A DNA stretch of 64,000 nucleotides from NCBI GenBank assembly GCA_002457515.1, contig NTJN01000003.1, positions 1 to 64,000 on the forward strand, in the 5' to 3' direction. Each line of letters begins with the position of its first letter. Position 1 is the stretch's first letter. Below the pieces are notes generated by a model. It was given only the letters and a program-made list of their open reading frames with translations, was not told the DNA's origin and searched no databases. Both the position numbers and the translations under genes were made by a program. This stretch comes from Pelagibacterales bacterium MED-G40. GTDB taxonomy: Bacteria; Pseudomonadota; Alphaproteobacteria; Pelagibacterales; Pelagibacteraceae. Of this stretch, positions 46,983 to 49,260 are shown one piece after another.

Positions 46983-48112
46983 TGAAAAAAAAATTAGCAA
47001 TTATTGGAGCGGGTATAGCAGGGCTTACTTTTGGAAATCTAATTAAGAAGCACTCAAAACATGACTTCACCATTTATGAGAAAGAAGAAAACTTATCTGT
47101 AGAGGAGGGTTATGGAATTCAATTATCAACAAATAGTATAAAAATTTTAAATCAAATTGGATTTGATAAAGTGAATTATGAGAAAATATTTCATCCAAAA
47201 GGTGTTGATTTTTATAATATCCATAACAAAAAAATATGTGATTTAGATTTAACTGAGTTTAACACTGAAAAGTATAAATACACTACTTTGCAAAGATCAG
47301 TCTTAATTGAATTTTTAAAAGATGATATCTACACTCAACATTTAAGATTTGGAAAAAGAATAAAAGAAGTCTCTGAATTAAAAGGTAAAGTATTAATTAA
47401 ATTTGATGATAATACTAACGATCTAGTTGATATCGTTGTAGGAGCTGATGGAATTTTTTCTAATACAAGATCTTTTTTTGAAAATAAAAAAAATAAACCA
47501 AAATTTCAAAAAGCTATAGCCGTAAGAACAATACTGAAATCAAAATCTGAATTAAATATTAGTGAAGAAAGAATAAGCCTCATGATGGGAAAAAATTGTC
47601 ACCTAGTTATTTATCCGATAAATAAAAATAAGGATCTTAATCTTGTTTGTATTATAAGAGATAAGAAGTATGAGCCTAATAATATTAAATTTATAGTTGA
47701 TAAAGTGGTTAAACAAAACCAGAATTTAAAAAAAATTTTTGATAGTGAATTAACATCTTGGCCTTTATACTCAACTACAAATATTCTTCCATCCTCTAAC
47801 AATAAAGTTTTCTATATTGGAGATGCATTTAATGGATTTCTACCAACATTAGCACAAGGTGCCGGGCAATCTATAGAAAGTGCTTATGAATTATTTAGTT
47901 TACTAAAAGAGGAAAATTTAGATGTCCAAAACTCATATTTTCAACAAAGATTAAAAAGAGCAAAAATTGTTAGAAAAAGATCAAATCTTAATTTTTTTGT
48001 ATTTCATTTTTCAAGTTCAATTATGCAAATAATAAGAAATTTTTTTATGAAATTTTTAGTAAAAAGAAAAAGTTTTATAAATTCTTATTTAGGTACAATT
48101 TACAAAAACTAG
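46982..48112 (+). CDS. FAD-dependent monooxygenase
   Basis: This 376-aa flavoprotein has the GxGxxG motif IGAGIAGL at residues 7-14, VVGADGIFSNTR (the DG fingerprint) near 155, and a C-terminal GDAFNGFLPTLAQGAG FAD-ribityl site. This is the aromatic-ring hydroxylase superfamily, which includes UbiH-type ubiquinone hydroxylases and salicylate hydroxylases. Substrate cannot be read. A C-terminal basic hydrophobic stretch might bind membrane. Its stop codon shares CTAG with the convergent ccrM stop. Confidence 0.88.
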   Translation: MKKKLAIIGAGIAGLTFGNLIKKHSKHDFTIYEKEENLSVEEGYGIQLSTNSIKILNQIGFDKVNYEKIFHPKGVDFYNIHNKKICDLDLTEFNTEKYKYTTLQRSVLIEFLKDDIYTQHLRFGKRIKEVSELKGKVLIKFDDNTNDLVDIVVGADGIFSNTRSFFENKKNKPKFQKAIAVRTILKSKSELNISEERISLMMGKNCHLVIYPINKNKDLNLVCIIRDKKYEPNNIKFIVDKVVKQNQNLKKIFDSELTSWPLYSTTNILPSSNNKVFYIGDAFNGFLPTLAQGAGQSIESAYELFSLLKEENLDVQNSYFQQRLKRAKIVRKRSNLNFFVFHFSSSIMQIIRNFFMKFLVKRKSFINSYLGTIYKN

Positions 48113-48122
48113 GATAGTTTTT
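48104..48122. terminator. Symmetric hairpin over the shared stop codons of monooxygenase and ccrM
   Basis: AAAAACTA (48104-48111) and TAGTTTTT (48115-48122) are perfect complements around GGA. Both genes end inside it, at CTAG 48109-48112. Each 3' arm ends in five T residues, so a small bidirectional terminator is possible. The stem is mostly A/T. Confidence 0.4.
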
Positions 48123-49182
48123 CTGAAATAAATTTTTGTCTAAGACTATCAATTACCACAATTGACCCATCTAGGTTATAATGCCAGTATGTCCAACCAT
48201 TACAGCTTTCAGTTCCCATAATTTTCGCAGCAACTTTGTGAATTGAACCCTCAGATTCTTTATATTTAATGCTTCCATCAGCCATTATCTTTGCATTAAT
48301 TTTTTTCTTAGGGTCCATTAAAGACGTTCCAGGTTTAATTATTCCTAGCTCAACGAGTGACCCAAAAGGAATTCTAGGTTTTGATTTATTGTTTTCAATT
48401 GTATCAAGATAATCGTCCTTAATCTTCTCTGCTTTGCTTATTCTGTCTTCCGCTGCATTAAAGTATTTTTTATCTTTTTCTATTCCACAATAACTTCTAC
48501 CTAATTTCTTAGATACTACTGCAGTAGTGCCAGTTCCTAAAAAAGGGTCGAAAACTGCATCGCCTTTATTTGTTGTTGCTAATATAATTCTATGAAGTAA
48601 CGCCTCAGGTTTTTGAGTTGAGTGAATTTTTTTACCATTTTTTTTTAGTCTTTCTTTTCCATTACAAATAGGTAACGTCCAATCCGATCTCATTTGTAAA
48701 TCATCGTTTAAGCATTTAAGTGATTGATAATTAAAAGTATATTTAGATTTTTTATTTTTTGAAGCCCAAATTAAAGTTTCATGAGCATTTGTGAACCTTG
48801 TGCCTCTAAAATTAGGCATTGGATTATTTTTGTTCCAAATCACATCATTAAGTAACCAATAGTCTAAATTTTGTAAATGGTACCCCAGTCGAAATATATT
48901 GTGATAGGAGCCTATTACCCAAATACATCCATTGTCTTTTAAAACTCTTTTACATTCAGTTAACCAAACTTTGCAAAAATCATCATAATGTTTAAAACTA
49001 TTAAACTGATCCCACTTATCATTAACTCCATTAACTTTGCTTGCATCTGGTCGAGTTAATTTTTCCCCAATCTGCATATTGTAAGGAGGATCAGCAAAAA
49101 CAAGGTCAAAAGTTTTATCGGGAATTTTTTTTAATTCTTTTAAGCAATCACCATTTAAAATTTTGTTTAAGTAATTCGTCAT
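48109..49182 (-). CDS. ccrM: Cell-cycle GANTC adenine DNA methyltransferase CcrM-type
   Basis: The 357-aa beta-class N6-adenine methyltransferase has the catalytic FADPPYNMQIG near residue 30 and the SAM-binding FDPFLGTGTT near residue 215. A C-terminal RAMA-type domain carries the CcrM hallmark region (IPFGSLVELG, GSIHKVAAKIMGTESCNGWTYW). CcrM methylates GANTC and helps time the alphaproteobacterial cell cycle. Its 78-bp upstream spacer contains four GANTC sites. It lies downstream of rnhB, the usual arrangement. Confidence 0.96.
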   Translation of the reverse strand: MTNYLNKILNGDCLKELKKIPDKTFDLVFADPPYNMQIGEKLTRPDASKVNGVNDKWDQFNSFKHYDDFCKVWLTECKRVLKDNGCIWVIGSYHNIFRLGYHLQNLDYWLLNDVIWNKNNPMPNFRGTRFTNAHETLIWASKNKKSKYTFNYQSLKCLNDDLQMRSDWTLPICNGKERLKKNGKKIHSTQKPEALLHRIILATTNKGDAVFDPFLGTGTTAVVSKKLGRSYCGIEKDKKYFNAAEDRISKAEKIKDDYLDTIENNKSKPRIPFGSLVELGIIKPGTSLMDPKKKINAKIMADGSIKYKESEGSIHKVAAKIMGTESCNGWTYWHYNLDGSIVVIDSLRQKFISEKLS

Positions 49183-49260
49183 TTTCTAGATTCAACTCTA
49201 AATTGAATCTTGGGTCAAACCATTTTATTAAAAAGACGAGTCTTCTTGTGTTGGAGATTC
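49183..49260 (-). promoter_or_regulatory. ccrM leader/promoter with four GANTC sites
   Basis: GANTC occurs at 49189-49193, 49205-49209, 49238-49242 and 49256-49260. With GC near 30 percent about 0.2 site would be expected in 78 bp. A minus-strand -35-like TTGACC (49218-49213) is followed 17 bp later by TTGAAT (49195-49190), which overlaps the site nearest the start. This would give a nearly leaderless mRNA. Feedback by methylation of its own promoter is a natural model, as described for Caulobacter ccrM. Confidence 0.6.

Follow-up and report, generated by a model that had tools for sequence, protein, structure and literature searches.

Conserved GANTC sites lie in the predicted core promoter of the GANTC methyltransferase gene ccrM in SAR11 and recur across Alphaproteobacteria

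The 78-bp gap between rnhB and ccrM in the window, the whole 64,000-nucleotide stretch of Pelagibacterales bacterium MED-G40 that was analysed, is predicted to contain a sigma-70-type ccrM promoter with target sites of CcrM itself in its core. Four GANTC sites occupy the gap; strong conservation is confined to two of them, sites A and B, and the outer two are weakly conserved. The cluster is conserved and probably functional, and we assign a probability of about 0.6 to the reading that the ccrM promoter senses methylation at these core sites and would thereby exert negative feedback through altered promoter opening. SAR11 bacteria rank with the ocean's most abundant cells, and the arrangement bears on how they time the cell cycle without CtrA. 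If the promoter senses the mark of its own product, it would form a minimal circuit linking methyltransferase dose to replication. The features are as follows, with offsets counted from the first T of the −35 hexamer.

48109..49182, minus strand: ccrM, GANTC adenine methyltransferase, 357 aa
49182..49185, minus strand: predicted transcription start, about 7 nt downstream of the −10 hexamer
49183..49260, no strand assigned: rnhB–ccrM gap with four GANTC sites
49189..49193, minus strand: site B, GAATC, offset 25, overlapping the −10 hexamer
49190..49195, minus strand: −10 hexamer TTGAAT
49191..49207, no strand assigned: inverted repeat TTCAA-N7-TTGAA, flanked to read GATTCAA-N7-TTGAATC
49205..49209, minus strand: site A, GATTC, offset 9, in the −35/−10 spacer
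49213..49218, minus strand: −35 hexamer TTGACC
49238..49242, no strand assigned: outer GANTC, upstream of the −35 hexamer
49256..49260, no strand assigned: outer GANTC, adjoining the rnhB stop codon
49261..49827, minus strand: rnhB, ribonuclease HII, upstream neighbour

The ccrM product carries N6_N4_Mtase and C-terminal RAMA domains, both above the Pfam cut-off, and matches the CcrM structure PDB 6pbd with an E value of 2.1e-136. Its full-length score of 574.9 bits with the NCBIfam CcrM model lies below the cut-off of 830, which a distant ortholog may miss because the name of the model points to Caulobacter. The upstream neighbour rnhB is recognised by Pfam RNase_HII and is encoded like ccrM on the minus strand; in 69 of 82 class loci it directly precedes ccrM. 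Of the 101 genomes of the genus, 79 gave a ccrM match (E 0.001), including all seven near-complete ones, with G042 and G096 among the 79 represented by weak partial matches only. GANTC is methylated in Pelagibacter (PMC9516812; here and below, cited papers are represented by their accessible portions).

The initial annotation had reported GANTC at 49189, 49205, 49238 and 49256 with about 0.2 sites expected; all four coordinates hold, and the computed expectation is 0.14–0.19 per 78 bp. The Poisson probability of at least four sites in the gap is 1.5e-5 to 4.4e-5, and when the gap sequence was shuffled 20,000 times with its dinucleotides preserved, four were reached in 11 cases. Genome-wide, GANTC density is 1.81 per kb (1647 in 911,758 bp), against an intergenic density of 2.40 per kb (75 in 31,287 bp) that depends on crude gene calls, namely 957 genes and 562 gaps in the 912-kb genome. 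Among these 562 gaps the rnhB–ccrM gap ranks first, and no other 78-bp stretch of the genome is as dense or contains four or more GANTC. The 64-kb window as a whole is GANTC-poor, with 109 sites against a shuffle mean of 161. The single other intergenic site noted earlier (20959) becomes four by the crude calls, at 663, 6817, 20959 and 53195.

The −10-like hexamer at 49195–49190, which the annotation had described as overlapped by the start-proximal site, pairs across a 17-bp spacer with TTGACC at 49218–49213, and the 49205 site falls in that spacer as proposed. TTGAAT does not have the A that is usual at the second position of a −10, and it is conserved in the alignment of the 53 closest loci. 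Directly downstream of it come CTAGAAA and the ATG of ccrM. A transcription start some 7 nt downstream of the −10 would coincide with the ATG or adjoin it, so the ccrM mRNA is probably leaderless or nearly so. As such, the word "leader" for the location of the four sites does not fit: relative to this predicted start they are located within the promoter core and upstream of it rather than in a transcribed leader.

Conservation was followed in SAR11 loci comprising the best 30 of the genus search and the best 80 of 577 matches of a second search, a sampling that over-represents near relatives. With L001 and L003 left out (without ccrM) and duplicates among L002–L113 removed, 99 distinct loci, the window's own included, were compared. 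In all 99, TTGAC is followed 5–29 nt later by GANTC, against 1.1 expected from shuffling; these loci are related and the shuffles ignore ancestry, so 99 of 99 does not amount to 99 independent events. Two GANTC lie in the promoter in 75 of the 99, and the offsets observed are 8, 9, 20 and 25 only. Conservation of all four sites was borne out in part: among the 53 closest loci, site A is kept in 50 and site B in 47, the outer sites at 49256 and 49238 in 33 and 31, and the background mean for four-base blocks is 20.9. Four equal sites are accordingly rejected, strong conservation being found for A and B alone.

Two main arrangements are seen. Loci of the window's SAR11 type (n = 67) keep site A in 63 and site B in 53. 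The other main type comprises 40 loci taken from both the SAR11 and the order sets. Of these, 39 keep site A, its free base being A in 29, C in nine and G in one, and 38 keep site B at offset 20, where it runs into a TCTAAT −10. In the other SAR11 lineages site B thus stands at offset 19–20; in the window's lineage it lies about 5 nt downstream of that, at 25, with overlap of the −10 retained. Because the class has site B at 19, we infer that in the window's lineage it was shifted from the upstream border of the −10 to a position within it.

The same layout extends well beyond SAR11. For the order, 27 loci were chosen from 73 genomes with a match, and 24 remained once L173 and L174 (duplicates) and L197 (too short) were dropped; at least one site is present in 21 of the 24 (0.2 expected) and two sites in 16. 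For the class, a ccrM match was found in 97 of 115 genomes with short partial matches counted. The class set excluded the window's own genome (G000) and another of its family (G117), took 83 of 85 genomes with a match as carrying ccrM (identity 49% or more), and retained 82 of 83 loci after removal of L269 as too short. TTGAC followed by GANTC 5–29 nt on occurs in 58 of these 82 promoters outside SAR11, against 1.2 expected from shuffling. The initial annotation remarked on the feature as one of a very reduced genome; it is not peculiar to that genome and belongs to a pattern across the class.

Geometry within the class is similarly restricted. The 82 loci divide into 38 with two or more sites, 20 with one and 24 without. 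Site A lies at offsets 6–12, mainly 6–10, and its free base varies (A 8, G 14, T 14, C 12) with GA and TC constant; site B lies at 19 in 37 promoters, and ten other sites are scattered at offsets 16–17, 20 or 25–29. In 31 of the 38 two-site promoters the second site is at offset 19 and touches the −10. When these 31 are aligned at that offset the −10 reads CANNNT, with A at the second base and T at the sixth in every one, the two bases that matter most in a −10. A genome-wide search for TTGAC-N2..5-GANTC-N4..7-GANTC recovered 112 places in 70 of 115 class genomes, zero to four in each, compared with 26 for a backwards control; 33 of the 112, spread over 33 of 85 genomes, are no more than 400 bp upstream of ccrM and share its strand. 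With 11 nt in its second gap, the window's own promoter falls outside this pattern.

Related promoters were observed at other genes. In class genomes a second recurrent paired-GANTC promoter, of a form near TTGAC-N5-GAATC-N7-GATTC, directly precedes FtsB/DivIC-like genes, by eye in seven of 30 loci (L234, L236, L237, L239, L246, L247 and L257), and Pfam DivIC was confirmed in all three loci tested (L234, L236 and L246). These promoters resemble that of ccrM in combining TTGAC with two GANTC and differ in their longer second gap. Elsewhere in the genome from which the window comes, a further TTGAC–GANTC site is found at each of C1:218564 and C1:222730, about 4.15 kb apart. One precedes a tiny ORF rich in Lys/Arg, close to a CarD-like gene, and the other precedes a helicase-like gene (by eye), and the pair recurs in SAR11, with G014, G075, G291 and G292 among the matches listed. 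Both sites are candidates for the same control as ccrM.

In the window, sites A and B are also the two ends of a palindrome, GATTCAA-N7-TTGAATC. The box TTCAA-N7-TTGA is present in 99 of 99 SAR11 loci, with other spacings from 3 to 12 found in zero or one locus each, and its position relative to the −35 is +11 in 67 loci, −12 in 29 and +28 in three, all three placements falling by inference inside the expected polymerase footprint. In the order set it occurs in 11 of 24 loci, or 18 of 24 when written TTCWA; in the class set it is found in none of 82 at N7 and in five of 82 at N8. The exact TTCAA-N7-TTGAA is intergenic in the window's own genome at ccrM only. By its arrangement the box resembles an operator whose position has shifted with its internal spacing unchanged. 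In the window's lineage, part of the conservation of A and B may belong to the palindrome, since both sites are its ends and it is kept where GANTC is lost. Separately, ten SAR11 ccrM gaps (L086, L087, L089, L100, L102, L108, L109 and L111–L113) start with GTTTCACGTAGAAAC, an imperfect palindrome that we take to resemble the parS centromere site.

Could the GANTC sites be incidental? A functionless cluster left by chance and shared ancestry would draw on the somewhat higher intergenic than overall density of GANTC in the own genome and on the modest conservation of the outer sites; the confinement of offsets across families, the variation of the free N base and the excess in the class (58 of 82 promoters against 1.2 expected) disfavour it, and we consider it highly improbable. 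A better case, still a rather unlikely one, can be made that the conserved element in SAR11 is an operator for a repressor dimer, for which NtrX, whose binding sites are CA-N-TG palindromes, is a candidate on motif shape alone, and that the two GANTC sites in the window's lineage are incidental to the sequence of its arms. The invariance of box and spacing in SAR11 favours such an operator, as does its persistence, as TTGAATT, where GANTC is lost. The genome encodes an NtrX-like regulator, L123, which scores 554.7 bits with a model whose cut-off is 600, Sinorhizobium meliloti NtrX binds CAAN2-5TTG in cell-cycle promoters, and Rhodobacter sphaeroides NtrX sites, GCAN9TGC, have the same CA-N9-TG spacing (PMC9223101). 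Where the box stands at −12, however, as it does in 40 loci, GANTC lies outside it and is yet kept (39 and 38 of 40 for A and B), and in the class the N7 box is absent from all 82 promoters, 58 of them with promoter GANTC; the operator accounts for neither. The ten intergenic boxes of the own genome with at most one mismatch are close to chance (7.5), which is odd for an NtrX regulon. A regulon suggested by near-boxes upstream of dnaA and glnA (one each, by eye) was rejected on the same count, which includes the exact ccrM box. CtrA, prompted as a binder by the N7 spacing, was likewise rejected: no Pelagibacter ctrA ortholog is reported in the accessible text of PMC2877005, and none was found among the four response regulators of the own, 85%-complete genome, where the CtrA model reached 114 of 350 bits on L122. 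Of these regulators, L124 (ActR/PrrA/RegA) alone passes its model cut-off; under it are L123 (NtrX as best model), L122 (OmpR-like) and L125 (marine sortase-system regulator/CreB).

A different reader is proposed if GcrA, the sigma-70 cofactor, recognises methylated A or B and activates ccrM, giving positive feedback; we regard this as possible and on balance doubtful. It gains from the presence of GcrA in 32 of 41 genomes, including 18 of the 24 others of the window's genus, from the match of SAR11 L114 to Caulobacter GcrA over its DNA-binding and sigma-binding parts, from the clustering of Caulobacter cell-cycle promoters with GANTC between −10 and −35 that are activated at 40–60 min (PMC4287350), and from the recruitment of polymerase by GcrA to methylated promoters (PMC7403470). 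Yet GcrA was not detected in the genomes of nine of the 38 two-site and four of the 20 one-site class promoters, and a 21-sequence profile run on 15 GcrA-negative ccrM genomes returned nothing convincing (best E 0.04, with an internal stop). PF07750 matched 76 of 115 class genomes, 74 over the family cut-off, and no positive association with the sites emerged (with sites, 45 genomes with GcrA and 13 without; no sites, 22 and 2; Fisher p 0.21), G177, one of the two sub-cut-off matches, being counted GcrA-positive. The window's sites, AGATTCA for A and TGAATCT for B, misfit by eye the extended motif YGAKTCG, quoted from Haakonsen 2015 in PMC7987155, a paper whose accessible text also describes few likely GcrA targets in Ca. 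P. ubique. A search of the window's own 85%-complete genome recovered no GcrA and no close match to the genes that flank gcrA in L114 and L115; this absence is probably an assembly gap. Since 13 of 58 promoter-bearing class genomes have no detectable GcrA, GcrA is not required for the layout to be kept, and by PF07750 and the 21-protein profile it is not supported as a universal single reader. A SAR11 loop through the gcrA promoter was rejected as well: in the five of eight loci with the gene start in view (L114–L117 and L120; L118, L119 and L121 left out), there is no GANTC in the roughly 200 bp upstream. For CtrA, the box TTAA-N7-TTAA was not found by eye in the 78-bp gap, and TTAA-N6..7-TTAA lies upstream of class ccrM in four of 24 promoters without the feature, two of 20 with one site and one of 38 with two; L200 and L263, both without the feature, have a CtrA-type box with a clear TTAACC end. 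For some alphaproteobacteria that lack CtrA sites, DnaA has been put forward as the regulator of ccrM, through DnaA boxes upstream of the gene (PMC2877005). Given nine two-site genomes without detectable GcrA and a Pelagibacter reportedly without CtrA, neither Caulobacter regulator alone explains the layout.

The reading that we prefer, a ccrM promoter that senses methylation in its core, fits the retention of sites A and B in the closest loci, their recurrence in the class promoters and the methylation of GANTC in Pelagibacter. The feedback switch suggested in the initial annotation is thereby supported in part. Under this model, adenine methylation of GANTC at the core sites would change promoter opening by RNA polymerase. 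Passage of the replication fork would leave the ccrM promoter hemimethylated and active, and CcrM, as it builds up, would re-methylate its own promoter and lower expression. The read-out would not need GcrA if N6-methyladenine directly affects recognition or melting of the −10, and GcrA may assist it where present. In SAR11, reportedly without CtrA, such feedback would be a main tie of ccrM expression to replication. Against the model stand the 24 of 82 class promoters without the feature and the Pelagibacter methylome, in whose accessible text ccrM is not named among the unmethylated sites (PMC9516812).

A negative sign was chosen by analogy, since it would limit CcrM and matches two described cases: in Caulobacter, only a hemimethylated chromosome allows ccrM to be activated (PMC2217572), and methylation lowers the activity of the Agrobacterium tumefaciens gcrA promoter region, which holds six GANTC, even in E. 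coli (PMC11514494). The opposite sign has precedents too, in that the Caulobacter ftsN promoter falls to 14% on GANTC mutation (PMC3885167) and Caulobacter ftsZ is most active when fully methylated (PMC8116508). The occurrence of the layout across distant relatives suggests an old self-adjusting circuit. A more speculative extension, to which we give less credence than even odds by some way, is that the ancestral alphaproteobacterial ccrM had a regulator-free governor in which polymerase reads the −10 mark directly, with CtrA and GcrA later layered on or lost. The methylated adenines would then lie at the −10 edge, or inside the −10 in the window's SAR11 lineage, and enzyme dose and replication-coupled timing would both be set without a dedicated transcription factor.

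Several elements of this arrangement have counterparts in known systems. In Caulobacter the GANTC sites of ccrM are in the leader. The Caulobacter crescentus ccrM promoter, activated by CtrA and active when hemimethylated, shares with the present one GANTC in the promoter region and expression tied to methylation (PMC2217572); here, in contrast, two sites lie inside the −35/−10 core and CtrA was not found. GcrA-dependent methylated sigma-70 promoters such as Caulobacter ctrA P1, with a site near −29, likewise carry GANTC in the −35/−10 region in the accessible descriptions, whereas the present layout has two sites at confined offsets, stands on ccrM itself and occurs also in genomes without detectable GcrA, which raises the question whether GANTC marks are read by GcrA alone. 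The gcrA promoter of A. tumefaciens, with its six sites in 250 bp, concerns another gene (PMC11514494), and the GANTC-free upstream regions of SAR11 gcrA are unlike it. A comparative study of 2010 tallied the GANTC sites preceding cell-cycle genes and, in its accessible part, drew no conclusion on methylation control (PMC2877005). The accessible portions of the open papers contain no report of a conserved GANTC pair in a ccrM core promoter or of the SAR11 case; prior notice is possible in the original Caulobacter ccrM promoter work, in Haakonsen 2015 or in Wu 2018. Methylation control of ccrM is known from Caulobacter, and what is new is the CtrA-free layout in the promoter core. The ccrM layout is a CtrA-free variant of a known theme, not a new kind of system.
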